64,000 bases of DNA from Zeus faber (taxonomy: Eukaryota > Chordata > Actinopteri > Zeiformes > Zeidae), in contig OY482862.1 in NCBI GenBank assembly GCA_960531495.1, positions 30,819,766 through 30,883,765 on the forward strand. The letters are read 5' to 3'. Position 1 is the stretch's first letter; each line of letters begins with the position of its first letter. The notes beneath the pieces are model-generated. The model did no database searches, was not told where the DNA came from, and saw nothing but the letters and a program-made list of their open reading frames with translations. The position numbers were made by a program, and so were the translations under genes. This document shows positions 12,174 to 52,062 of this stretch, one piece after another.

Positions 12174-12180
12174 TATAAAG
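12174..12180 (+). promoter_or_regulatory. nms: nms TATA box
   Basis: TATAAAG within GAGCCTATAAAGTGTCC lies about 120 bp before the nms ATG. A start site about 30 bp downstream would be near 12204 and give a 5' UTR of roughly 90 nt. Confidence 0.65.
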
Positions 12181-12202: not shown

Positions 12203-12271
12203 GGCACCGCACCGCACCGCACCGCACCGCACCGCACCGCACCGCACCGCACCGCACCGCACCGCACCGCT
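12203..12271. repeat. (CGCAC)n pentanucleotide in the nms 5' UTR
   Basis: About 13 perfect GCACC/CCGCA pentamers occupy most of the predicted nms 5' leader between the TATA box and the ATG. Confidence 0.93.
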
Positions 12272-12295: not shown

Positions 12296-15200
12296 ATGTT
12301 GCTACGGACGGTCCGACTCCTCTGGCTGCTCTGCTGCCTTGCTCCCTGGCACTCACCCGCAGGTCAGAACTTTTGGATCCAAAAAATATGATTCTTAAAA
12401 CATCTGGTGCGCGCGCAATTACGCACAGTTACGCACGTGGATGAAGTTGTTTGGATGAGACTTTTAACCCTTTAAATACTGTTCATGTAATACTTCATTC
12501 ATTGTAATACTACATGTAATACTTCATGTATTTAAATGCTGTTCATGTAAAACTGCATACATTGTAATACTACATGGAATACTTCATGTGTTTAAATACT
12601 GTTCATGTAATACTTCATACATCGTAATACTACATGTAGTACTTCCTATATGTAAATACTGTTCATGTAATACTTCATAAATCGTAATACTACATGTAAT
12701 ACTTCATGTATTTAAATACTGTTCATGTAATACTTCATAAATCGTAATACTACATGTAATACTTGATATATTCAAATACTTATCATGTAATACTTCATCT
12801 TTTTATATACGGTACACGTAATACTTCATAAATGTAAATACTACATGTAATACTGTATATATTTAAATACTACATGAACTACTTCATATATTTAAAAACT
12901 GTTCATATAATACCTCAAATATATAAATACTACATGTAATTCATCATATATTTTAATACTACATATAATGCTTCATATATTTAAATACTGTTCATGTAAT
13001 ACGTCATATAATTAAATCCTACATGTAAAACTTAATTAATTCAAATACTTAATGTAATACTTAATCTTTTGAAATCCTGCATGTAATACTTTGTATATTC
13101 AAATGCTGTTCGTGTAATAATTAATATATTTAAATACTACATATAAAACTTAATATATTCAAATACTTCATGTAATACTAAATATATTTAAATACGACAT
13201 GGAAAACTTAATATATAAAAATACTACATGCAATACTTCATATATTCAAATACTTATGCAATACTTCATATATTTAAATACTTCATGTAATACTTCATCT
13301 TTTTAAATACTGTTAATCTAATACTTTATATATTTAAGTACTTCATGTAATACTTAATCTTTTTAAATACTGTTAATGTAAAACTTCATATATTGTAATA
13401 CTTCATGTAATACTATTTTAGAGTCTGCGAACCATTTGAGCGGGTGGGAAGATGGAGAGACTGTAAGGAAGGTAACGTTCTGTTTTATATTTTGTCTTTC
13501 TTTCAAATTCCTGTCTGTGTTTTAATGAACATATTTATTTTAATATGTTCCGTCATCGTCCACAACTAGGATGTTTTTCTATGGAGTTTTAATTCTAAAT
13601 CACATGTACATTTTATTTTTGCTTGATTATTATTATTCTCAAATAAATTTTTCGGACCGAAAGTTTGTGGCGCAGATCAACATCTGAAGCCACGGACACC
13701 AATAAAGCGTCGTTGGATCCGGGGCTTTACGGACATCTTCTTGTCCAAGTTTGATCCACTTCAATCCACACTTGTGAGCAGGAGTTAGTGAAAAACTGTC
13801 CCAAATTTACCAGAAGTCACAGAAGGTTGGCGTAGTGGGATTCATTTGCGAAGCCGGCACTTTGTGACATCATCACCCAATTTGTTATGTATGTGCAGGG
13901 TGTGGCTCTGGGGTTGCTTTGGCATGGGACGAGGCGTGTCGGTAGACTCCATTGGTGTGTCCTGGTTGCTTCTCACCAGATCTGCGCCGGGTTGAGGCGA
14001 CATGGAAGGATGAACATCTGTGGTGGAGGTGTGGAAGGTTGTTGTGCACATCAGTGACTTGAGGGCCCTTGGGGGATGCCAGGGACCGGCCCTTAAAGGG
14101 CATTCCACTGAAAAGCAAAATTAACTGCATTACGTTTGACAGATGAAGCGTTGCTTTGTTTCTGCTCTGTCATGGCCGCAGCTTGGGTGGAGGTCTGTCA
14201 AAGACACTCTGTCTGAGGGGAAGAGTACTACACCGAGTACCACACCGAGTACTACACCAGTAATACAAGAGTTCTGCTGGACTTTACTGCTGGACAGTAC
14301 TTTACAACACAGGAGTTCAGATCAGTCTCTTCTTCTCACCCTTGATGTTTCTGTTCAACTCCTATGATGAGATAATGAGATCCCTCATCACAGGAAGTGG
14401 TCTGTCCCCACCCCCCCCCATCCCTGTTCCTGTCCCCTGTCCCCCTGTCCCCCGTCCATGTCCCCTTTCCATCCCCCGTCCCCCTCCCCAGCTCTTCTCT
14501 ACATGCTCCACTGAGTGACCGTGTTCCTCGTGCAGTAAAGATTCTTTGTCACCACCTTGTGGCGACTGAAGTTCTTGCGGTTAATGTTGTGTAACATTAA
14601 CTTCCTGAAGTACATCTCAGCAGAAGTACTGAAAGGCAGGAAAAAGCAGGAAAATGCAGGAACAGCAAGAAAAATAAGGAAAAAGCAGGAAAAGGCAGGA
14701 AATACGCTGGAAAAAGCAAGAAAAAAATGTCTCCATGTCCCCATGTCATCTTGTTCCCATGTTCCCATGCCATCATGTTCCCATGTCATCATGTCATCTT
14801 GTTGAAATGTTCCCATGTCATCATGTTCCTATGTTCCCATGTTCCCATGTCATCATGTTCCCATGTTCCCATGTCATCATGTTCTCATGTTCCCATGTCA
14901 TCATGTTCCCATGTTCCCATGTTCCCATGTCATCATGTTCTCATGTTCCCATGTCATCATGTTCCCATGTTCCCATGTTCCCATGTCATCATGTTCCCAT
15001 GTTCCCATGTCATCATGTTGCCATGTTCCCTGGTTCCCATGTCATCATGTTCCCATGTTCCCTTGTTCCCATGTCATCATGTTCCCATGTCATCATGTTC
15101 CCATGTTCCCATGTCATCATGTTCCCATGTTCCCATGTTCCATGTTCCCATGTCATCATGTTCCGATGTTCCCATGTCATCATGTTCCCATGTTCCCATG

Positions 15201-18200
15201 TTCCCATGTCATCATGTCCCATTTTCCCATATAATCATGTTCCCATTTCCCATGTTCCCATGTCATCATATTCCCATGTCCCCATGTTCCCATATCCCCA
15301 TGTCATCATGTTCCCATGTCCCCATGTCCCCATGTTCTCATGTCCCCATGTCCCATTTTCCCATATGATCATGTCCCAACGTTCCCATGTCCCCATGTAG
15401 CATGTTCCCATGTTCCCATGTTCCCATGTCCCATGTTTTCATTCCCCTATGTCCCTATGTTCCCATGTCATGGGTTCCCATTTCCCCATGTCCCTATGTT
15501 CCCACGTTACCATGTCATCATGTTCCCATGTTCAAATGTCATCATGTCCCCATGCCCCATATCCCAAAGTCATCATGTCCCCATGTTCCCATGTCATCAT
15601 GTTCCCATGTTCCCATGTCATCATGTTCCCATGTTCCCATGTTCCATGTTCCCATGTCATCATGTTCCGATGTTCCCATGTCATCATGTTCCCATGTTCC
15701 CATGTCCCATGTTCCCATGTCATCATGTTCCCATGTTCCCATGTTCCCATGTCATCATGTCCCATTTTCCCATATAATCATGTTCCCATTTCCCATGTTC
15801 CCATGTCATCATATTCCCATGTCCCCATGTTCCCATATCCCCATGTCATCATGTTCCCATGTCCCCATGTCCCCATGTTCTCATGTCCCCATGTCCCATT
15901 TTCCCATATGATCATGTCCCCATGTTCCCATGTCATCATGTTCCCACGTCCCCATGTCCCATGTTCCCATATGATCATGTTCCAAAGTTCCCATATCATC
16001 ATGTCCCAACGTTCCCATGGCCCCCTATTCCCATGTCTCATTTTACCATGTTCTCATGTTCCCATGCCTCATGTTCCCATGTCTCATGTTCCCGTGTCTC
16101 ATGTTCCCATGTTCTCATGTTCCCATGCCTCATCTTCACATGTCTCATGTTCCCATGGCTCATGTTCCCATGTTCTCTTGTTCCCATGTCTCATGTTCCC
16201 ATGTCTCATGTTCCCATGTTCTCATGTTCCCATGTTCTCATGTTCCCATGTCATCATGTTCCCATGTTCCCATGTTCCCATGTCTCATGTTCCCATGTCT
16301 CATGTTCCCATGTCTCATGTTCCCATGCCTCTTGTTCCCATGTCTCATGTCCCCATGTTCTCATGTTCCCATGTTCTCATGTTCCCGTGTCATCATGTTC
16401 CCATGTTCCCATGTCTCATGTCCCCATGCCTCATGTTGCCATGTCTCATGTTCCCATGCCTCATGTTCTCATGCCTCATGTTCCCATGTCTCATGATCCC
16501 ATGTCTCATGATCCCATGTCTCATGTTACCATGTCTCATGTTCCCATGTCTCATGTTCCCCTGTTCTCATGTTCCCATGTCTCATGTTCCCATGTTCTCA
16601 TGTTCCCATGTTCTCATGTTCCCATGTCTCATGTTCCCATGTTCTCATGTTCCAATGTCTCATGTCTCATGTTCCTTCCTCCCTTCCTTCCTTCCTCCCT
16701 TCCGGAAGGGAGGAAGGAATAAAATAAAACTTGTCCATGACAAGTTTCTCCTTTATATGGTCGGCCTGCAGGGCACTTCCAGGACACCTCCAGGGCACTT
16801 CCAGGCCACTTCAAGGGCATTTCCAGAGCACTTCAAGGGCACTTCCAGGGCACTTCCAGGGCACTTCCAAGGCACTTCCAGGGCACTTCAAGGGCACTTC
16901 CAGGGCACTTCAAGGGCACTTCAAGGGCACTTCCAGAGCACTGGACCTTTTGGTGCTATTATATTTTATAATATGTAGTTATTATCATTTTATATTATAA
17001 TGGTGTCACCCCCTGTGATGGTGTCACCCCCTGTGATGATGTCTGATGGTGACGGGTTCCGGGTCAGGTCCATGAAAGGGGAGAAGCTTCAGCAGAATCC
17101 AACTCCTGTCAACAGGTCCCGGCGGCTGCTGAGTCACAGGTTCAACACCGGATGGAACGGGCGCTCATTAGCACAGTAGCATGAGTTGATCCAGTGCGTC
17201 CAGAAAGATGTTAGTCATGGACCCCGCCCACCTAGGGAGGTGAGGGTGGAGGAACAGAAGATGAATGATGAGGTTTGAAAACATTTTGGAGCAGATTTCC
17301 TGCAGAACGTTTTCCTTCCAGCTCCGGCAGGTTCTGGGATTCCTTCTGATTGTTGCACTGTAGCAAAGAATGAAGTGAATACTGATCAGTACTGATCAGT
17401 GCTGATCAGTACTGGGTGGTGCTGATCAGTACTGGGTGGTGCTGATCAGAGGTCCTGTCTGTCCAGGTTGGAGGTCTTCACCAGAGAGAGGACTTTGGAA
17501 ACGTGGTTTGGAGCGACGGCAACGAGATACAAGGACACACTGCAAGTTATTACATCACGTGTGATCACATTCAGTCAAAATAACACGGAATCGAAACCCA
17601 GTCTCTCTCTCTCTATATATATATATTGAATATTCAGTAGAGGTCAGTAGAGGTCAGAAGAGGTCAGTAGGGGTCAGTAGAGGTCAGTAGAGGTCAGTAT
17701 ATGTCAGTAGGAGGCAGTAGATGTCAGTAGAGGTCAGTAGAGGTCAGTAGAGGTCAAAGAGGTCCGTAGGGGTCAGTAGAGGTCAGAAGAGGTTAGTAGG
17801 GGTCAGTAGAGGTCAGTAGAGGTCAGTAGAGGTCGGTATATGTCAGTAGGGGGAAGTAGAGGTCAGTAGATGTCAGAAGAGGTCAGTAGGAGTCAATAGG
17901 GGCAGTAGAGGTCAGTAGATGTCAGAAGAGGTCAGTAGGGGTCAGTAGGGGGAGTAGAGGTCAGTAGAGGTCAGTAGGGGTCAGTAGAGGTCAGTAGAGG
18001 TCAGTAGGGGTCAGTAGGGGTCAGTAGGGGCAGTAGATGTCAGTGGGGCAGTAGAGGTCAGTAGAGGTCATTAGATGTCAGTAGGGGGCAGTAGAGGTCA
18101 GTAGGGGTCATTAGGGGGCAGTAGAGGTCAGTAGAGGTCAGTAGGGGTCAGTAGGGGGCAGTAGAGGTCATATAGGTCAGTAGGGGTCAGTAGAGGTCAG

Positions 18201-20160
18201 TGGATATCAGTAGGGGTCAGTAGGGGCAGTAGGAGATAGTTAAATTCAGTTTATTTGCATCGATGACGCGTTACAACAAACGTTTCAGAGAAACAGGAAG
18301 AGGAAATAACCTCCATAATGTTATGATATTTATGATATTTATGATATTTATGATCTGATATTGGATCGTCTCTTCACAGGAACAGGTACAGAATGTTTTT
18401 AAAAGAGTAAGTTGCTTACTTACCTTATTACTACTAACAAGAATCTGTATTATCATTATTAAAATAATAATAATTACCATTATTATTTTTATCATTATTA
18501 AAATAATAATAATAATAATGATCATTATTGTTATTATTGTTATCATTATTTATAATTAACCTAATTATTATTATCATTAAAAAAGCATGATTCTCTATCC
18601 TTTCTCAGTTCCTGTTCCACTATTCTAAAGCTCACAACGTTGTTGGCGCTGTGCGGCACCAGGTGAGTGCCACAGTATTGATACAGCTGATGTTGTTAAC
18701 ATGTTTTAAACGTGTTGTTAATGTGTTAACGTGGTGTTAATGTGTTAACATGTTGTTAATGTGTAAACGTGTTGTTAATGTGTAAACGTGTTGTTAGTGT
18801 GTTAACATGTTGTTGATGTGTTAACATGTTGTTAAAGTGTTGTTAATGTGTTAACATGGTGTTAATGTGTTAACGTGTTGTTAATGTGTTAACATGTTGT
18901 TAATGTGTTAACACGTTGTTAATGTGTTAATGTGTAAACGTGTTGATAATGTTTTAACGTGTTGTTAATGTGTAAACATGTTGTTAATGTGTTAACGTGG
19001 TGTTAATGTGTTAACATGTTGTTAATGTGTTAACATGTTGTTATTGTGTAAACGTGATGTTAATGTGTTAACATGTTGTTAATGTGTTAACATGTTGTTA
19101 TTGTGTAAACGTGATGTTAATGTGTTAACATGTTGTTAATGTGTTTACATGTTGTTAATGTGTTAACATGTTGGTAATGTGTTAATGTGTTAATGTGCTA
19201 ATGTGTAAACATGTTAATGTGTTAACGTGGTTTTAATGTGTTAACATGTTAATTTGTAAACGTGCTGTTAATGTGTTAACGTGTTGTTAATGTGTAACAT
19301 GGTGTTAACGTGTTAACATGTTGTTAATTTGTTAACGTGTTAATGTGTAAACGTGTTGATAATGTTTTAACGTGTTGTTAATGTGTTGACGTGATATTAA
19401 TGTGTTAACATGTTAATGTGTATACGTGTTGTTAATGTGTTGTTAATGTGTTAACATGGTATTAATGTGTTAAGGTGTTGTTAATGGGTGAACGTGTTAA
19501 TGTGTTAACATGTTGATGTGTTAACGTGTTGTTAATGTGTTAACATGGTCATGTGTTAACATGTTGTTAATGTGCAGTCCCACTCGGGGCACGCTGATGT
19601 GCTAACATGTTGTTAATGTGTTAACATGGTGTTAATGTGTTGTTTATGTGTTAACGTGTTGTTAATGTGTTAACATGGTGTTTATGTGGTAACATGTTGT
19701 TAATGTGTTAACGTGTTGTTAATGTGTTAACATGTTAACGTGTTAACATGGTGTTAATGTGTTAACTTGTTGTTAATGTGTTAATGTATTAACGTGTTAA
19801 TGTGTAAACGTGTTGTTAATGTGTTAACATGGTGTTAATGTGTTGTTAATGTGTTAATGTGTTGTTAGTGTTTAAACGTGTTGTTAATGTGTTAACGTGT
19901 TGTTAATGTGCAGTCCCACTCGGGGCACGCTCTGATGTGTTAACATGTTAACATGTGAACGTGTTCCCTGCAGTCTCAATCGGTGCATCCTCTGATGCAT
20001 CTGTCTCCCAAACTGTCCCAGCGGAGGAAGAAGCAGCTCGTGTTGATGGTAAAACTCTGAAACTGGAACTAAAACACTGAAATTCAGGTGAAAGTTCCTT
20101 TCAAGTTTCTTCTCCTTTCTCCTCCAACAGAGGGTCCAGCGTCCCGATTGGACCTCATGA
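12296..20160 (+). CDS. nms: Neuromedin S precursor (NMSRP-only form), 8 exons
   Basis: Secreted neuropeptide precursor of the neuromedin U/S family. Exons: 12296-12362, 13422-13471, 14143-14192, 17467-17545, 18380-18406, 18609-18662, 19974-20048, 20131-20160. All junctions are GT/AG, phases match, and the total is 432 nt (143 codons plus stop). Exon 1 encodes a signal peptide (MLLRTVRLLWLLCCLAPWHS). Exon 5 ends in KR, exon 6 begins FLFHYSK (residue 92, a family hallmark), and exon 7 carries SVHPLMHLSPKLSQRRKK. Cleavage at KR and RRKK would release a 34-residue peptide (92-125), the NMS-related peptide. The expected C-terminal FRPRNGR NMS/NMU peptide is absent: exon 8 adds only nine residues, ending RPDWTS. 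Exons 5-8 are firm by homology. Exons 2-4 rest on phase and splice sites. It converges with pdcl3. Confidence 0.85.
12480..13415. repeat. 60-bp minisatellite in nms intron 1
   Basis: The unit combines TTTAAATACTGTTCATGTAA, TACTTCATAC and ATCGTAATACTACATGTAAT. Copies at 12481, 12541, 12601, 12661 and 12721 are exactly 60 bp apart. They become diverged and irregular towards exon 2. Confidence 0.9.
13475..14142. other. nms intron 2
   Basis: Non-repetitive intronic sequence between nms exons 2 and 3. - strand open frames here show no recognisable domain. Confidence 0.5.
14632..14722. repeat. Short minisatellite (GCAGGAAAAAGCAGGAAAAT type)
   Basis: Irregular 12-18-bp purine-rich units in nms intron 3. 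Confidence 0.75.
14724..16672. repeat. Stop-free minisatellite of TTCCCATG units in nms intron 3
   Basis: Nearly 2 kb of hexamer-like units TTCCCATG, CCCATGTCATCATG and CTCATG. Blocks around 15130-15370 recur around 15645-15910, about 515 bp apart, so a large segment was duplicated. A very long open frame (15410-16978) runs through the array because the unit lacks stops in that frame. It lies in an intron and encodes only a CSHVPM-like repeat. Confidence 0.95.
16688..16719. repeat. Perfect 32-bp palindrome
   Basis: TTCCTTCCTCCCTTCC is followed directly by its exact reverse complement, with the centre between 16703 and 16704. A second short inverted repeat (ACTTGTC...GACAAGT) follows at about 16729-16745. 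Confidence 0.9.
16768..16945. repeat. 12-bp minisatellite (GGGCACTTCCAG / GGGCACTTCAAG)
   Basis: About 14 tandem dodecamers in nms intron 3. Confidence 0.93.
16961..17466. other. nms intron 3, distal part
   Basis: Contains two tandem GGTGTCACCCCCTGTGAT copies near 17000 and CTGATCAGTACTGGGTGGTG repeats near 17385-17450. A short frame at about 17068-17178 with dibasic sites is not joined in my model because its splice phase does not fit. Confidence 0.4.
17635..18240. repeat. 10-bp minisatellite (AGTAGAGGTC / AGTAGGGGTC) in nms intron 4
   Basis: About 60 tandem decamers. It is preceded by (CT)n and (TA)n runs at about 17600-17628. Confidence 0.95.
18685..19965. repeat. 18-bp-type minisatellite (GTTAATGTGTTAACATGTT) in nms intron 6
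   Basis: Tandem units built from TTAATGTGTTAAC and ATGTTG/GTGTTG fill the intron between exons 6 and 7. Two inserts resembling the start of exon 7 lie inside it, at about 19575-19602 and 19909-19938. Confidence 0.93.
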
Positions 20161-20257: not shown

Positions 20258-20263
20258 AATAAA
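20258..20263 (+). terminator. nms: nms poly(A) signal
   Basis: AATAAA about 100 nt after the nms stop codon and before the convergent pdcl3 3' end. Confidence 0.7.
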
Positions 20264-20506: not shown

Positions 20507-23500
20507 TCAGTCCTCGTCCTCTGATTGGCTGTCTCTCCTGGGAATTGAGGACCTGATTGAGGACATGAGCTGGTCCTGAATCTGCTTCCTGGGGTTCTCC
20601 TCCAGGTCCGAGTGGACGGCACCGACCTCCGCCAGCCTCCACTCCAGCTCTGCATCCAAACATAAGACGGATACAAACATAAGGAAGAACGATGCTTCCA
20701 AATAATAAAGGAAGTGCAAGTCCCCCTGTGTTTGTGCTCCACCCATCATCCAGCTGGTTCCACCCACCTGGTGGTTCCCTAGTTACTAGTCGACTACTAC
20801 TACTACATAAGTTTTGGGTTCCACCCACCTGGTGGTTCCCTAGTTACTAGTCGACTACTACTACCTACGTTTAGGGTTACCCCCACCTGGTGGTTCCCTA
20901 GTTACTAGTGGACTACTACTACTACCTAAGTTTTGGGTTCCACCCACCTGGTGGTTCCATAGTTACTAGTGGACGACTACTACTACTACTACTACATAAG
21001 TTTGGGTTCCACCCACCTGGTGGTTCCCTAGTTACTAGTGGACTACTACTACTACTACCTACGTTTTGGGTTTCACCCACCTAGTGGTTCCTTAGTTACT
21101 AGTAGAGCACTGTTACTACATAAGTTTGGGTTCCACCCACCTGGTGGTTCCCTAGTTACTAGTCGACTACTACTACCTACGTTTAGGGTTACCCCCACCT
21201 GGTGGTTCCCTGGTTACTAGTGGACTACTACTACTACCTAAGATTTGGGTTCCACCCACCTGGTGGTTCCCTAGCTACTAGTGGACTACTACTTCTACTA
21301 CCTAAGTTTTGGGTTCCACCCACCTGGTGTTTCCCTAGTTACTAGTGGACTACTACTACCTACCTGTTGGGTTCCACCCACCTGGTGGTTCCCTAGTTAC
21401 TAGTGGACTACTACTACCTACGTTTAGGGTTACCCCCACCTGGTGGTTGCCTAGATACTAGTGGACTACTACTACTACCTAAGTTTTGGGTTCCACCCAC
21501 CTGGTGGTAACCTAGTTACTAGTGGACAACTACTACTACATAAGTTTGGGTTCCACCCACCTGCTGGTTCACTAGTTACTAGTGGACTACTACTACTACC
21601 TAAGTTTTGGGTTCCACCCACCTGGTCGTTCCCTAGTTACCAGTGGACTACTACTACCTACGTTTTGGGTTCCACCCACCTGGTGGTTCCCTAGTTACTA
21701 GTGGACTACTACTACCTACGTTTAGGGTTACCCCCACCTGGTGGTTCCCTAGTTACTAGTGGCTACTACTACCTACCTGTTGGGTTCCACCCACCTGGTG
21801 GTTCCCTAGTTACTAGTGGACTACTACTACCTACGTTTAGGGTTACCCCCACCTGGTGGTTGCCTAGTTACTAGTGGACTACTACTACTACCTAAGTTTT
21901 GGGTTCCACCCACCTGGTGGTTCCCTAGTTACTAGTGGACTACTACTCCCTCAGTTTGGAGTTACCCCCTGTCGTACCGTCCGCCTTGAGGCTCATGCCC
22001 CCGAACACCAGCCCTCCGATCAGCTGGGCCTTCATCTCCCCCTGGTGGTAGACGAACAGCGTGGGCAGGTTGCGGTCGGGGTAGTTGGCGATGCAGGTGG
22101 TGGAGATTGAGCGGAGGAACTTGGTCTGAGGAAACTTCCTGGCCAGCTCAGCCAGGTGCTGGTTGATCAGGGTGCATAGAGGGATGCTGGGAAACAGGAA
22201 ACAGGAAGAGGGTGAGGCTTCTTTGCCCAGTGGAGCTGAGAGGATGGAGCAAGTCATCGCTGCAAAATCTAGTATTTTTGTTCTTAATGATGAGAAAACA
22301 AATCCCAGGAGGTTGGTAGATAAAATCCACCAAAGTACAGTATATAGTAGTATAGTACACTGTAGTATTTCATATGATGTGACTGTGTCCCTCACCCCTG
22401 CTTATAGAGGTGCAGCACCACCCAGATCCCCTCCCCCGCCTTGTTGACCTCCTGGACATAGTCCTGGCCAGAGATCTCCGTCAGCTCCCCGAACACGTTC
22501 CTCAGCTGAGAGGCTTTCCACTGCGCCAGGCGCTGCTGCCTGGGGGGCGGGCGGGGCCACATGGAGGCGGGGCCACATGGGACACATCAGTACCTGCAAC
22601 CAGCTCGTCACAGAAACTCGGACCATGTCATGCTGTCGTTTGGTGCTAGTACCACTATAAATAACAATACTAGTACTGGTATACAATACTATCACTACTA
22701 TACAATACTAGCACTACTACACAATACAATACTAGTGCTACAATATAACATTAGTACTACTGTACAATACTAGCACTATTATACAATACTATCACTACTA
22801 TACTATACAATACCTACACTACTATACAACACAATACTAGCACTAGCATACAATACTAGTACTAATATGTCATACTAGCACTTATATACAATACTCACAC
22901 TACTATACAATACTCGTACTACTATAAAATAGTAGCACTACTGTACAATACTTGCACTACTGTACAATATGAGCACTACTTTACAACACTAGCACAACTA
23001 TACAACACTAGCACTACTATACAACACTAGCACTACGATACAACACTAGCACTACTATACAACACTAGCACTACTATACAACACTAGCACTACTATACAA
23101 TACTAGTAATACTATACAATACTAGTATTACAATACTAGCACTATAATACAATACAATACTAGCACTACTACACAATGAGTACCACCATACAATACAATA
23201 CTAGCACTACTAGACAATACTAGTACTACAATGCAATTCAATACTAGCACTACTATACAATACTAGCACTACTATACAACATTAGTACTACAATACGATA
23301 CTAGTATTACAATACAATACTAGCACTATTATATAATACAATACTAGTACTACAATACAATACTAGTACTACTATACAATACGATACTAGCACTACTATA
23401 CAATAGAATACTAGCACTACTATACAATACTAGTACTTCAAAATAATACATTACTACTGTGTGTGTGCGTATGTGTGTGTGCGTATGTGTGTGTGTGTGT

Positions 23501-39100: not shown

Positions 39101-42100
39101 GCAGCGACTACAGTTAATTCAAAATGCGGCTGCACACGTTATCACTGGAACATAAAAAGTTTGAACATATCACACCTGTTCTTACATCTCTACATTGGCT
39201 CCCCATCAAAACTAGAATTGATTTTAAGATTCTACTGCTTGTATGTAAAGCTATAGATGGCCTTGCACCTCAGTATATAAAATAAATGCTAATTATACAC
39301 AAACCAGTAAGAACTCTCAGGTCCACAGGCAGTGGTCTTTTAACTATCCCTCATACCAACTCTAAAGCAGGAGAAGCTGCTTTCTGGATCTATGCCACAA
39401 GTAAATGGAACACCCTACCGAGGGACCTGAGATTCAAGAGATTCAAGATTCAAGAGGTTTATTCGTCACATACATATACATACTTTCATACATATATATA
39501 TACATACATTTCATACATTTTCATACATGGTAGCTCAGGAGGTAGAGCTGGTGGTCTAGTGATCCAAAGGTTGCTGGTTCGATCCCAGGCTCCTCCTGCT
39601 AGCATGCTGTAGTGTCCTTGAGCAAGACACGTAACCCCTAATTGCTCCTGATGGCTGCGTCCGTCGGTGTTTGAACAATTGTAAGTCGCTTTGGATAAAA
39701 GCGTCTGCTAAATGACTAAATGTAATGTAATATATGCAGTGAAATGTAATGCAACGCTCCCTGTGATAACACACAATATGTCCTAGGAAAAACGTATTTC
39801 TAATAGACCAACTAACTGACTCCTAAAACGTAATACAGTAAGTCGAATACTTAAAGAATGAAGTAAAAATATATAGAATAAAATAAAATGAAATAAAATA
39901 CAATAAAAATAAAATAAAATGAGATAAAATGGAATAGATAGAAGGAATATGCTTATGTATATGGAATAGGCAGTGGGGGGGTAGTAGTGTTATGAATAAT
40001 ACAGCACAGTACAACAATACAACAGTACGGCGCAGCAATACGGCATCACGAACAACCCTGAACAGTGACACAGTATGCTACATATAGTACAGTAGGTAGT
40101 GGAGCCTATGTGTATGGCTCAGTGAGGACCCCTGGAGAGGTCAGCATTGACAGTTCTAATGGCTTGCAGGAAAAAACTCTGTCTCAGTCTCTCTGTTCTC
40201 ACTGTGTGACTGTGGAGGCGCTTGCCTGACTGCAGCAGCTGGAACAGACCGTTGTTGGGGTGATGAGGATCCTTCATGATCCTGCGGGCTCTGCTACTAC
40301 ACCTCCTGGTGTATAACTCCTGCAAGGGGAGGAGGGTAGTTCCAGTGGTACGTTCAGCTGAACGCACCACCCTTTGCAGGGCCCGCCTGTCCTGGGCAGT
40401 ACAGCTCCCAAACCAGGCAGTGATGTTGCCTGTCAGGATGCTCTCCACTGCTCCAGAGTAGAAGGACTTGAGGATCCTCACCGAGACCCGGAATTTGCTC
40501 AGCCGCCTGAGGTGGTAGAGACGCTGCCTCGCCTTCCTCACCAGAGTGTCTGTTTGTAAAATCAATGTTAAGTCCTCTGTGATGTGGACTCCCAGGTATT
40601 TGAAGCTGCTCACCCTGTCAACAGAAATCCCGTTAATCACCAAGGGCACGTGCGTCCTCGATTGTGATCCACGCCTAAAGTCCACAATCAGCTCCTTAGT
40701 TTTGCTGACGTTCAGGTGGAGGCTGTTGTCCTGGCACCAGAGTGACAGGTCAGCCACCTCCTCGCGGTAGGCCTTCTCGTCGCAGTCGGTGATCAGGCCC
40801 ACGACAACGGTGTCGTCAGCAAACTTGATGATGGTGTTGGAGCTGGACCTGGCCACACAGTCATGTGTGTACAGGGAGCACAGTAGGGGGCTGAGGACGC
40901 AGCCCTGGGGGGATCCTGTATTCAGGGTGAGGGAGCTTGACATGTGCTTCCCCACCCTGACCACCGGGGGGCGGGCTGTGAGGAAGTCCAGGGTCCAGGC
41001 GCACAGCGAAGCATTCAGTCCGAGCTCCTTCAGCTTGACAGCCAGTCTGGTGGGGACTATGGTGTTGAAGGCTGAACTGTAATCGATGAACAGCATTCTC
41101 ACATAGGCCCCCTTCTGGCCATCCAGGTGTGTGAGTGTGGTGTGCAGTACCTGGGAAACCGTGTCATCCGTGGATCTGTTCTGCTGGTACGCGAACTGCA
41201 ACGGGTCCAAGGTGCGGGGGAGGGAGGCGCAGATGTAGTCCTTAATCAACCTCTCGAAACACTTCATTACCACCGAGGTGAGGGCCGCCGGACGGTAGTC
41301 ATTCAGGCAGGCAGGAGAGGCGATCTTCAGGACAGGAACGACGGTGGACCTCTTGAAGCAGGACGGGACCACTGATTCAGCCAGGGAGATGTTGAATATT
41401 GTTGTGAACACCGGGGCTAGCTGGTTAGCACAGGTCTTCAGTACTCGCCCAGATATGCCATCTGGGCCCGCAGCTTTCCTGGTGTTCACCCGCATCAGAG
41501 CCCTCCTGACCTCGTGCACGGACACAGAGAGTGCGCGCTCATCCCCAGCGGTGTAACTCCAATTAGCCGGCGAGCTAGCGGTGCTGTTGCCAGACTCGAA
41601 CCGCGCATAAAAGGAGTTCAGTTCGTTGGCTAGGGAGGCGTCCACACTCGTGGCTGGGGAGGGGCTGCTCTTGTAGTTTGTGATCATCCGCAGCCCCTGC
41701 CACAAGCGTCTTGTGTCCCCCTGCTCCATCTGTAGCTCCACGGTCTCTCTGTACACCCGTATAGCGTCCCTCACCGCCCTCCGCAGATTGTACGACGCTG
41801 CTTTGTAATTGTCCATATTTCCGGATACAAGACCGTCGTTGTAAGCGGTCGTGCGGTCATTCAGAGCGCAGCAGATGGATTTATCAACCCACGGTTTCTG
41901 GTTTGGAAATATCCAAACTTTCACCGTGGGAATGATATTATCTGCTAGCGTAGCTACAAAACTCACTGCCACCTCTATAAACTCGCTGACGTCACTTGAA
42001 ATTGATTGGAACATGTCCCAGTCTACGTCAGTCAGAGCGTCCTGAAGCGCAGCCTCTGAATGGTCCGTCCACCGCTTCACTTCCCTCGTCACCACCAGCT

Positions 42101-43204
42101 CGCGCGATCAGAGGCCTGTAAACGGGAACCAGCGAGATCGTGGCGTGGTCAGATTTCCCGAAAGCAGGGAGCGAGACGGTCTTGTATCCGTTCTTGTACG
42201 GTGTGTAACAATGGTCCAAAGTTCTATCTCCCCTGGTGGCACACGTGATGTGTTGGTGGAAATTAGGCAGAACTTTTTTTAAGGTTGGCCCTGTTAAAGT
42301 CCTCAGTCACCACCACAGCCGCGTCGGGATGTCTGTTCTGAAATCCGCACAACACATCATAACAGGGACCGACCTAGCTGTCTCGGTGTCCGCTTGTGGT
42401 GGGATATAAACGGCTGTGATGATGACCATGCTAAATTCCCGGCGGTGATTACACGGCATGAGATGGTCAGCTGTTCCAGGTTCGGCGAGCAGGAGTGGGA
42501 GAGGAACTTGGTGTTTTCGGGGTTACACCAGCAGCTATTTACCATTAGAGACGCCTCCACCTTTGGATTTCCCCGACTCCCCCGTTCTGTCGCCACGGAA
42601 CACGGAGAAGGACTCAGCTGGACGGATGGCTTCATCCGGCACTAGTAGGTTCAACCATGTTTCTGTCAGACAGAGGACGCAACAGTTCCTCGTGTCTCGT
42701 TGGAATTTAATCCTCGCTCGAAGTTCATCCATCTTGTTTTCCAGGGACTGGACGTTGGCAAGAAGGATGCTTGGCAGCGGTGGACAGTAAGGTCGTGTAC
42801 TCATTCTGACCCGAATGCCACCTCGTTTTCCTCGTTGCTTCCTCCGTGGGCCCGCTCGTGGAACAGCGGCTCCATTTTTGTTGTTGTTGTGTGAGAGGTG
42901 TTCCCGCGTAGGATTTCCGCTGGCCACTCTGCTTCGACGGATAAAAAGTCCCAAAGTTGTTCGTTTAGGGAAAATTTTCTATCCATGAGTGCATCGCGGT
43001 CGTATGAGGTAACTGCCGATGCTTTTTTGGCGTACATTATGATAAAAACGGAAAAAAATACTAAAATGTGCAAAAGTCAACCGGAGCGCCGGCGCAGGCG
43101 ACCGCAGGGGGCGGCGCCACAATCGCCAGAGAGGCCCCCACACTGAATACTTTTAAAAGCAGCTTAAAAACTTTGTTGTTCATTACAGTCTATGACTGAC
43201 TGAC

Positions 43205-46200: not shown

Positions 46201-49200
46201 GCGGTTCGTCCTTTTTAAGAGCTGTTGTTCCGCAGGTCTCCTGGTGGGGGCGCTCGACACGGTGCTGGACTCCAACGCACGGGTCACGCCGTTCCGCATC
46301 CTGCTGCAGGTCCCTGGATCCCAGATCAGCTGGGTCATCGCCAGCGGTGAGGCAGCCATCTTCTGTCCAACAGTGCCTATCACTTATCACATTATCACGT
46401 CTGTTCCCACACATTGATAAATGACTAAATATCTCAAAAAGCAAAGATGCAGGAGGATGACATTTTGAAAACATCATAGAATGTGAATTTCATCGTGATT
46501 AAAGTGGTAATCCTGTCGATTATTTTGTTATCAAAATCTTATATTTGCTACTTCAGATGATATTTATCTGGCACTTTATAAGAAACGGCTTTTCAATGTA
46601 TGTGCTCTTCTATCCTGCTTGCATTGTTGCTGGCGTGGTCCGCCACAGCTGCAGTGAATCAGCTAAATCAGCGTAGCAAGCGGTGCTCAGTAAACTGTCT
46701 CTATGGATGAACATTTGCAAAAAAAAACCAAAGAAATATCAGCACAATCAATAGATCAGAAGAGACTCTTGTAGTCCTGCTCTGGTCCTGCAGGGGCCAC
46801 TGTGGAGGAGGTGAAGCGGCACTGGGACTGGCTCAACCTCAACCTGCTGCACTCACTGTCAGTGTTCGACAATAAGGAGGACCTGGCCGGCTTTGTGAGG
46901 GGGAAGGTCAAGGTGAGGGGGGGGGCGGGCGGGGTGGGGGTGGGGTGGGGGGGTGGGGGGGCAACAGAGGAAGATGGAATGATTCTACTTTGCACTTTAC
47001 CCCCAGGCCCTCATAGCAGAGGAGTCCCGGGGCCGGCAGGCGGCCCAGGAGGCGGAGCCAGAGAAGTTCCTGGAGGCGGTGCTGAGGTTCCAGCTGCATT
47101 TCGGCCTCCCTGCGCAGGAGAAGCTGGTGGGCCACTTCTCCTGCTGCTGCTGGAAAGGCCGCGTCCCGCGCCAGGGAGTCCTGTTCCTCAGCACCAACCA
47201 CCTCGCCTTCTACTCCTTCCTGTTGGGCAAGGAAGGTGGGCCTCTGAACCAGTCCTTCGGTAGCCATCAGTAGCCATCGCTAGCCTTTGGTAGTCCTCGG
47301 TAGCTGTCAGTAGCCTTCGCTCGCCATCTGTTTTTGGCTTGTCAAGTAATAGGCCTTCAAAGACCTTGAACAGTTTCAAACCTCTGTGTGACTAGTTACT
47401 GACTCCTCTTGGTCCTTGTTCTCTAACCCCCCTTCTCCATCCTGCAGTGAAGCTGATGGTCCCGTGGGCCGAGGTGACCCGGCTGGACCGGATCTCGGCG
47501 GGCCTGATGAGCGAGGTGATCCGGGTCAGCACCCGACGGCGGCAGAGGGACTTCTCCATGTTCCTGAACCTGGACGAGGTCTTCAGCCTGATGGGCCAGC
47601 TGGCCGACATCGCCCTGAGACGCCTGCTGGACAGTGAGGGCTTGGAGCTGGACCCGGACCTGCAGAGACCTGGGGGCATAACCAAGAGGTGAGGAGGGGT
47701 TCTGGAGCTAGGCCCGGACCTGCAGAGACCTGGGGGCATAACCAGGAGGTGAGGAGGAGGGAGGGTGGGGTTCTTGAGCTGGACCAGGACCCGGGGGTCC
47801 TAGTTACCATCTCATACCTGATATTTATAATGATAATCTGTATTCCAACACAGTGACCACAGGACGATTGGTCCTGGTTTCTTGCTCGTGCACTTCCTGT
47901 CCTCTGACTGCCACTTCCTGTCTGTAAGGTCACAGAGTTCAGTGGTTAAAGTGCAACCTGGTTCGGTTCCTTCAGGAGTGGATGCTCCCAGAGCGTCTGG
48001 CGAGTATGAAGTGGACCAAACATCTGGTCCAGCTGTGGTTCTTACTGGTCCAGCTGTGGTCCTTACTGGTCCAGCTATGGTTCTAACTGGTCCATCTGTG
48101 GTTCTTACTGGTCCATCTGTGGTTCTTACTAGTCCATCTGTGGTTCTTACTGGTCCAGCTGTGGTTCTAACTGGTCCAGCTGTGGTTCTAACTGGTCCAG
48201 CTGTGGTTCTAACTGGTCCAGCTGTGGTTCTTACTGGTCCAGCTGTGGTTCTTACTGGTCCAGCTGTGATTCTAACTGGTCCAGGTGTGATTCTAACTGG
48301 TCCAGCTGTGGTTCTAACTGGTCAAGCTGTGGGTTTAACGGGTCCAGCTGTGGTTCTAACTGGTCAAGCTGTAGGTTTAACGGGACCAGCTGTGGTTCTA
48401 ACTGGTCAAACTGTGAGTTTAACTGGTCTAACTGTGGTTCTAACTGGTCACGCTGTGGGTTTAACTGGTCCAGCTGTGGGTCTTTCTCAAGAAGATGGCG
48501 CGTCAGCCCACTTGAAATCAAATGGCCGCCGGCTAGCCCTTAACGCAGAGCGTGTTTGGTCCACTTCCTGTTCTCCAGATGCTCTGAGAGCGTCCACACC
48601 TAAAGGAAACCAAGCAGGTTCCACTCAGCACTGCAGGGGATGGATCCCTAACTGGTCCGCCCTGGTGTGGGTGGTGTAGAGGTGACGGTCACTCTAATGA
48701 TGGAACCTGTGAAGTGGGGGTGTGATCTGAGGACCTGAAAGAGGCCAGGGTGACTCATGGTGACAGGTCCCTTCGTCCTCAACCCATCGCATGCCAACGC
48801 ACTGACACCTGTCGGGCGGTTGCTAGGCAACAGCCGTTGCAAAGCCCAAAATAATGTTGTTTTTAAATATAATTCATATGAAAGAAAATGATCAGTTGCA
48901 GGTAATATGATGGGACATCATTCAGAGAGATGAAGGGGATGTTGTGTTTCTTATTGTGTGTGGATCATGTTCTTTCCCAAAAAGATGTGACGATCATAGA
49001 TCAGGATCTCCCCCCACCCCCCTCCGCAGGGTCCTGGAAGACCAGGCCCTCAGGGACTACGTCTTGGCCCTGTTCCGCCTGCCCCGCACCGAGCAGCTCC
49101 ATCAGGTGGCGCCGTGCTCCATCTGGACACCCCACGCCCGCTGCCACACGGCGGGAACCCTGTACGCCACACAGCACTACCTGGGATTCTGCAGCCGGGA

Positions 49201-49471
49201 GGAGGGACGCTGCCTCCTGCTGGTCCCCCTGGCACAGGTACCCCTGAGAAGCAGGCAGTTAGACAGACAGTAAGACAGGAGGGACGCTAGCATTTATAGA
49301 CACAGTATAGTAATGTTTATAATAGTATTTGCAGTATAGTAATGTTTATAATAGTATTAACCGTATAGTTATAATTATAATAGTATTTACAGTATAGTCA
49401 TTTTTATTATTGTATTTATAATAATGATTTTAATAGCATTTACAGTATAGTATTTTTAATAGAATTTACAG

Positions 49472-49506
<35 letters not shown>

Positions 49507-49564
49507 CATGAAGATGGCACCAGGCAGTTTAAGAGCAGACCCTAAGGAGGGTCCAACACCACCA

Positions 49565-49630
<66 letters not shown>

Positions 49631-50442
49631 TGGTATTATGAGTTGAAAACATGTTTTTAAATCCCCTGTGGCCAGACCTTGACCTGTGGCCAAATGGAAA
49701 CATGGCTCTCCACATGGTGACACCCCCTTGTGGCCCTGCCAGGTATTGTCCATAGAGAAGGCGGAGAGCACCAACCTCCTCCCGAACCCTGTGATCGTGA
49801 GCGTGCGCAGTAAGAAAGCCTTCCAGCTCATCGAGCTGCAGGAGCGGGACCTCCTGGTTCACAGCCTCAACTCCAAACTGAGGGACCTGCAGTGGAAGAG
49901 CTCCGTACTATGCAGCAAGCCCAGCAAGAGGGCCCAAGTAGGTGGAGCAGGAGAACCAGAGCTTGGTGGGGGCCTGGTAGGTGGAGCGGGAGAACCAGAG
50001 CTCCGTGAGGGCCTGGTAGGTGGAGCAGATCCTGTCCTGGTTCCTCGGTATGTGACAGTACTGTGCTGGTTGGTGTTCCCGCAGAGCTTGACAACGCCCT
50101 ACTACACCTTCTACTACGACACCTGCTCGGATGGCGAGGAGGTGGAGGAGCAGGTTCTCCGCAACACCGTCAACACAGAGGCCCTGATGATCGCTTTCAA
50201 CCACACCCTCCCTGGAGACCACGGCCACAGCAGCAAGGTGCAGACCCCCACCCAATGCAGCAGCGTCTGTCTGGATGTGTGTAGACGTTTTGTTCTGTGT
50301 GTTACAGAAGGTGGAGCTGTGGGAGAAGCATTTCTCCGAGTTTGGACGAGGAGTTCACATGTTCCGCACGGAGGAGACCCACAAGCTGGTTGCCATGGGG
50401 ATCCCCGAGTCGCTGCGAGGAGAGCTGTGGATGAGCTTCTCT

Positions 50443-50501
<59 letters not shown>

Positions 50502-52062
50502 TTATTCCCTGTGGAGCTGTCGCCATCCTCCTGCAAAGCATGCTGGGAAGGAGGGGGCTCCCCTTCACCGCTCACTGTGCGTGTGTGTCTTCCGTGGTGG
50601 TGCTTGCGTAAGCATTAGCAGATGAAGAAGTGACTTGGTGTTGTTGTCTCCAGACGCCTGCTCGGACCTGGCCTCGCACCCGGGCTACTACCCTGCTCTG
50701 GTGCAGAGGTCCATGGGCCTCAGCAGCCTGGCCACCGAGGAGATCGAGCGGGACCTGCACCGCTCGCTGCCGGACCACCCGGCCTTCCAGAACCCCAAGG
50801 GCATCGCAGCGCTCAGGAGGGTCCTCACCGCCTACGCCCACCGCAACCCAAAGATAGGATACTGCCAGGTTAACACCCTGACCTCTGACCTCTCCCTTTA
50901 GTCCATGAACACCCTGACATCTGACCTCTCTCTCTAGTCCATGAACACCCTGACCTCTGGCCCCTCTGTCTAGTCCATGAACACCCTGACCTCTGACCTC
51001 TCTCTTTAGTCCATGAACATTGTGGCCTCGGTGCTGCTGCTCTACTCTAGGGAGGAGGAGGCCTTCTGGTTGCTGGTGGCCGTGTGCGAGCGGATGCTGC
51101 CAAACTACTTCAACCGCAGAGTCATAGGTGAGAGGTCAGGGGTCAAACTAGGTATAGCAGCTAAGTAGTGCATATAGAAATATGGGCAACTGGCCCATGT
51201 CACATCAAGGTCGACATTAAGCTTTTGCTGTTCTTCTGACCCCTGGTCTCTCCCTGACCCCTGGTCCCTCCCTGTCCCTTGGTCGCTCTATGACCCCTGG
51301 TCTCTCCCTGACCCCTGCTCTCTCCCTGACCCCTGGTCCCTCCCTGTCCCTTGGTCCCTCCCTGTCCCTTGGTTCCTCCCTGTCCCTTGGTTCCTCCCTG
51401 TCCCTTGGTCTCTCCCTGACCCCTGGCCCCTCCCTGTCCCTTGGTCCCTCCCTGTCCCTTGGTCCCTCCCTGTCCCTTGGTTCCTCCCTGTCCCTTGGTC
51501 TCTCCCTGACCCCTGGCCCCTCCCTGTCCCTCGGTCCCTCCCTGTCCCTTGGTCCCTCCCCGACCCCTGGTCCCTCCCCAACCCCTGGTCCCTCCTTGAC
51601 CTCTGTACCCTCCCTGAGCCCTGGTCCCTCCCTGTCCTTTGGTCCCTTCCTGTCCCATGGTCCCTCCCTGTCCCCTGGTCCCTCCCTGTCCCTTGGTCCC
51701 TCCCTGACCCCGGATTCCTGCAGGAGCCCAGGTGGACCAATCTGTGTTTGAAGAGCTGATCCGGGAGCGTCTTCCGGAGTTGGCGGAGCACTTTGTGGAC
51801 CTGTCCCCGTTGTCCTCTGTGTCCTTGTCCTGGTTCCTGACCCTGTTCCTCAGCGCGCTGCCGTTCCCCAGCGCCGTCCTGGTCCTGGACTGCTTCTTCC
51901 TGCACGGCGTCCAGACTGTCTTCCAGCTGGGCCTCGCCGTGCTCCAGGCCAACACCACGCAGCTCTGCACCAGCACAGATGACGGCCAGGCACTGATGGT
52001 CCTCACAAGGTCAGAGGTCACCTGAGGTCGTCTGCTATGTGTCACATACACTGCCTTGTTCT

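Follow-up and report, generated by a model that had tools for sequence, protein, structure and literature searches.

A 64,000-nucleotide stretch of the Zeus faber genome (hereafter the window; GenBank assembly GCA_960531495.1, contig OY482862.1, positions 30,819,766 to 30,883,765 of the forward strand) contains at positions 12296–20160, on the plus strand, a gene that by homology is the neuromedin S gene (nms), with seven coding exons. We consider it likely, with a probability of about 0.85, that this gene is a teleost nms orthologue in the usual teleost form, in which the receptor-activating FRPRN peptide (neuromedin S, NMS) has been lost and the NMS-related peptide (NMSRP, also called NSRP) has been kept. 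An earlier reading of the same letters (the sequence-only reading) had noticed that the NMS peptide is missing. That observation is true and the inference drawn from it is sound; the biology was already known, and the gene is a slightly unusual member of its kind. An nms gene without FRPRN is a known feature and the rule among the teleosts compared here, and is not peculiar to Z. faber.

The precursor can be read across the seven exons as follows. Coding exon 1 (12296–12362) encodes MLLRTVRLLWLLCCLAPWHSPA, a hydrophobic start that resembles a signal peptide when judged by eye. Exon 2 (13422–13471), with an acceptor AG and the donor GTAACG, encodes (E)SANHLSGWEDGETVRK, and exon 3 (17467–17526), delimited by homology, encodes VGGLHQREDFGNVVWSDGNE and has AT instead of GT at the donor position. 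Exon 4 (18380–18406) encodes EQVQNVFKR, with the KR cleavage site at its end; exon 5 (18609–18662) encodes FLFHYSKAHNVVGAVRHQ, which is NMSRP residues 1–18; and exon 6 (19974–20048) encodes SQSVHPLMHLSPKLSQRRKKQLVLM, comprising the final 16 NMSRP residues, the RRKK site, and the start of the tail, QLVLM. Exon 7 (20131–20160) encodes RVQRPDWTS followed by a TGA stop, and is the diverged counterpart of the euteleost end (K)IRGLPEGML; a poly(A) signal, AATAAA, was read at 20258–20263 (+). The frames are open through all seven exons, with AG at every acceptor and GT at every donor except that of exon 3. Between KR and RRKK lies the 34-residue NMSRP, FLFHYSKAHNVVGAVRHQSQSVHPLMHLSPKLSQ (FLFHYSK...SPKLSQ). 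Direct reading thus bears out the peptide layout given in the sequence-only reading, i.e., KR, the 34-mer, RRKK, and a 14-residue tail before the stop, whereas its exon count and numbering have to be corrected: seven exons fit rather than eight, the alignment to teleost entries leaving no segment over for an eighth, and the 34-mer spans residues 69–102 rather than 92–125. Pfam assigned no family to the window protein; human NMS itself reaches 10.7 bits there, with a cut-off of 18.4.

No amidated FRPRN C-terminal peptide ahead of a GR or GK site is encoded by this gene. All six frames of the window were searched with a regular expression for FRPRN-like motifs, with zero matches. When the window and its flanks of about 9.8 and 9.9 kb (83,701 bases together) were scanned under BLOSUM62 with the probes FFLFRPRNGR and GYFLFRPRNG, whose self scores are 56 and 58, the top score was 26, within the range of maxima (23–32) from 20 shuffles of 2-base blocks. 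The window itself contains no N, and in the upstream flank adjoining it (L014), 5,000 bases are N. The earlier statement that no FRPRNGR-like sequence occurs at nms therefore holds for the window and its readable flanks, neither scan having given an above-chance match there, and a hidden FRPRN exon was rejected on the same grounds. It is extremely improbable that such an exon is present and was missed. An intron may interrupt its codons, and it might lie in the 5,000 upstream bases that read N, but nothing in 83.7 kb scored above the shuffles, and the motif is absent from all 152 teleost entries described below. Downstream, the convergent gene PDCL3 has its stop codon at 20507, only 249 bases after the nms poly(A) signal begins, which leaves little room for an extra nms exon. 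In the Z. faber genome, an FRPRN DNA-pattern search found 20 places, against 31 for a reversed control pattern. These 20 places were examined as candidates for nms or nmu and rejected, as none had both a preceding aromatic run and a following basic residue and none was nms-like or nmu-like; the FRPRN-like place in L022 codes FSPSNG.

For comparison with other vertebrates, three protein searches found 150, 437, and 217 proteins within the E-value limit, and the best 120 of each together made up 276 different proteins. Of these, 152 were assigned to teleosts by species name, and the other 124 were tetrapod NMS and neuromedin U (NMU) entries. All counts of entries given here refer to these listed matches, and the teleost set consists of database proteins that include isoforms of one gene, several per species, and some sequences whose tail runs into an intron. 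The pattern F[RK][PSAL]R[NK]G occurred in 0 of the 152 teleost entries and in 120 of the 124 tetrapod entries, and the strict form FRPRNG in 0 and 113, respectively. Of the four tetrapod entries that failed the broad pattern, one has FLYRPRNG and the other three are truncated or alternative forms. In the teleost entries, KR stood directly ahead of the NMSRP in 148, and the NMSRP, delimited by our own pattern, was 34 residues long in 126. Because the searches selected entries that resemble the precursor, and with it the NMSRP, the presence of NMSRP in them is in part a product of the selection; this does not apply to the absence of FRPRN. In the search used for orthology, the best E value was 3.4e-31, and all 120 rows listed (the best 120 of 150) were teleost entries. 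Most of these are annotated as neuromedin-S, neuromedin-U, or nms, and a few are hypothetical or otherwise named; the NMSRP motif was found in every one of the 120.

The 152 teleost entries comprised 39 otocephalans and 113 euteleosts. As entries without FRPRN occur in both groups, parsimony would place the loss before their split, in their common ancestor at the latest. No entry from gar, bowfin, sturgeon, eel, or bony-tongue was noticed among the matches listed, and the dating of the loss therefore stops at that split. Teleost precedents for an nms gene with a 34-residue NMSRP and no NMS had been mentioned in the sequence-only reading, which proposed that this nms signals, if at all, through NMSRP. 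Comparison with nms in other teleosts agrees with these precedents (34 residues in 126/152 entries and an FRPRN-type motif in none), and also supports the proposal on signaling. Li et al., writing in 2015 on the orange-spotted grouper, reportedly stated that mature NMS is lost and the 34-residue Nmsrp kept, and a zebrafish study by Chen et al. from 2016 is said to be a further precedent for nms encoding NMSRP without NMS.

Like the teleost nms genes that encode NMSRP alone, the window gene has KR, an NMSRP of about 34 residues, a basic site after it, a short tail, and no FRPRN. It differs from them in having no GT donor at exon 3, in a tail with an ending other than (K)IRGLPEGML, and in an NMSRP that reads SQSVHPLMHL where the consensus reads SHSVHPLMRL. 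The mammalian NMS precursor is similar in its NMSRP region (human FLFHYS...VHPLMHL) and its basic site of the RR(M)K(R) type, but it runs on into a linker and then ...FFLFRPRNGR, whereas the window gene has 14 residues and a stop. The NMU precursor, with its peptide NURP, differs in retaining an amidated FRPRN peptide, and the C-terminal half of the window NMSRP is NMS-like (VHPLMHL). According to one paper, NURP and NSRP begin with six identical residues, the NMU and NMS precursors have cleavage sites in common, and NURP, when assayed on cells, did not activate NMU receptors (PMC5585327). A review states that mammalian NURP and NSRP do not act via NMUR1 or NMUR2, and gives their receptor as unknown (PMC8283259). 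In zebrafish and grouper, according to passages of another review, the NMS-related protein appears to be orexigenic, expression of NPY and orexin goes up after it is injected, and food deprivation increases NMS mRNA in the hypothalamus; these passages on the NMS-related protein do not mention a missing NMS peptide (PMC5126056).

Several observations weigh against the assignment of this gene to the usual teleost form. By homology, exon 3 ends in GAG/ATACAAGG (the slash marks the exon end), with AT where a GT donor is expected, and the only in-frame alternatives are skipping of the exon and a weak GC donor located 15 bases downstream, ACT/GCAAGT at 17541, which would add the five residues IQGHT. 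The NMSRP of the window gene agrees at 27 of its 34 sites with the consensus drawn from 64 selected euteleosts; the median among the 64 is 31, and only two of them match as poorly or worse. In a tree of 34 rows, i.e., the window gene and 33 hand-picked entries, the end branch of the window gene was the longest (0.54), followed by that of Denticeps (0.46), with a median of 0.14; the nearest row was Genypterus, and the placement of the window gene was unresolved. Furthermore, nmu was not found in Z. faber by the genome FRPRN pattern, which is blind to YRPRN and to split codons and so says nothing firm on nmu, and the product of nms is predicted here from the DNA sequence.

Given the missing donor, the poor NMSRP match, and the long branch, some probability has to be left to a decaying gene: nms would then be an early pseudogene in the Z. 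faber lineage, in which, after the old loss of NMS, the NMSRP too is losing its role. Introns consisting largely of tandem repeats (5,376 of 7,502 bases are covered by tandem-repeat rows) and a tail that matches the euteleost consensus at only 2 of 14 sites point in the same direction. We nevertheless consider decay unlikely. Every frame is open, the KR, the 34-residue length, and the RRKK are intact, and the NMSRP is still at consensus at the 27 sites mentioned. Exon 3 can be skipped in frame because it is 60 nt long with both ends in phase 0, and a Lycodopsis model (P0094) has no counterpart of it. Short tails occur in other euteleost entries too, and by the threshold built into the tree tool no row, the window gene included, counts as long-branched; a generally fast-evolving genome could possibly account for its branch. 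For the donor alone, a tentative explanation, to which we would give somewhat less than an even chance, is that the AT reflects a sequencing error or an allele, or marks a rare non-GT intron, in an otherwise fully normal gene, which would be compatible with an nms of the usual teleost form. Substituting one base of a GTACAAG donor would suffice, and the GC donor at 17541 is also in frame, but divergence shows separately in the tail and in the long branch.

The tail after RRKK was compared in the same entries. A tail like (K)VLLLKIRGLPEGML was found in 82 of the 113 euteleost entries, or 83 counting P0068, which the pattern missed. The remaining euteleost tails were 16 short ones and 15 of other forms, most of the latter continuing into an intron. 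The tails of the 39 otocephalan entries were unlike it, with two cysteines in several. The euteleost-type tail is therefore not universal among euteleosts, and the window gene does not have it; in most euteleost entries, the tail is conserved about as strictly as the NMSRP. The 2/14 match of the window tail compares with a median of 13/14 among the 64 selected euteleosts, a value biased upward because these entries were picked by a pattern that requires a regular tail (the unfiltered count being the 82/113 above), and only two of the 64 match the consensus as poorly as the window gene or worse. We know of no description of the (K)VLLLKIRGLPEGML tail, for which papers were not searched. It is improbable, in our view, that this tail is itself a functional element and that the NMSRP-only nms of Z. 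faber is on its way out, as its lost exon 3 donor, diverged tail, and fast NMSRP change might suggest; if this were true, Z. faber would be a natural case of NMSRP loss following NMS loss.

Introns 1–5 of nms (12363–19973) are largely minisatellite arrays with differing units. Within the minisatellite of intron 5 are two fragments that resemble the start of exon 6, at 19578–19601 and 19914–19937, each preceded by AG. They read SHSGHADV and SHSGHALM, with SHS as in other teleosts, and the working exon 6 reads SQSVHPLM. The fragment at 19914–19937 has 11 mismatches in 36 to the working exon, and that at 19578–19601 has more. Upstream of the coding region, TATAAAG at 12174–12180 (+) may be a TATA box. 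As a (GCACC)13.4 repeat (12204–12270) lies just downstream of it, the 5′ untranslated region of nms could be mostly a perfect pentanucleotide repeat. The details added by the present analysis are the seven exons, the exon 3 without GT, the diverged tail, the longest branch, and the exon 6 fragments in intron 5. These details hint at relaxed constraint, and nms seems, from its sequence, to be under weaker constraint in the Z. faber lineage than in most of the teleosts compared.

The neighborhood of the gene agrees with its assignment to nms. Two open frames on the minus strand, convergent to nms, at 20507–20782 and 21943–22401, contain the last PDCL3 coding exon (with the stop codon at 20507) and another PDCL3 exon (...SLKAD), respectively. 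Joined by us, the two PDCL3 pieces match phosducin-like protein 3 (7nvm_P) with an E value of 3.2e-46 in a search of PDB sequences; Pfam and NCBIfam scans gave no family name for them. Two GRAM-domain frames and one TBC-domain frame at 46983–50901 (+) belong to part of a further gene, whose GRAM-GRAM-TBC domains fit the TBC1D8/TBC1D9 kind. PDCL3 and TBC1D8 both lie near human NMS, and for this reason the gene is called TBC1D8-like here, its identification extending to the level of these domains. A 662-residue open frame at 40119–42107 (−) contains a reverse transcriptase domain (RVT_1, E value 4.5e-25) and is probably a LINE-type element.

If the gene works as its sequence suggests, the signal peptide would direct the precursor into secretion, convertases would cut at KR and at RRKK, and a carboxypeptidase would trim the basic residues. 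The unamidated 34-mer would then be released from brain neurons and would act as an appetite-raising signal on a receptor other than NMUR1/2. Signaling of the FRPRN type would be left to a separate nmu gene, the presence of which in Z. faber is assumed from other teleosts. Since teleost nms carries NMSRP without NMS, knocking it out should eliminate NMSRP and nothing else of the pair. The steady length of 34 residues in genes without FRPRN (126/152 entries) argues for a role and a receptor of NMSRP's own, an argument to be taken with caution because resemblance to NMSRP was what brought the entries into the set. This argument is not new to Z. faber, and the window gene adds to it one more, rather divergent, example.

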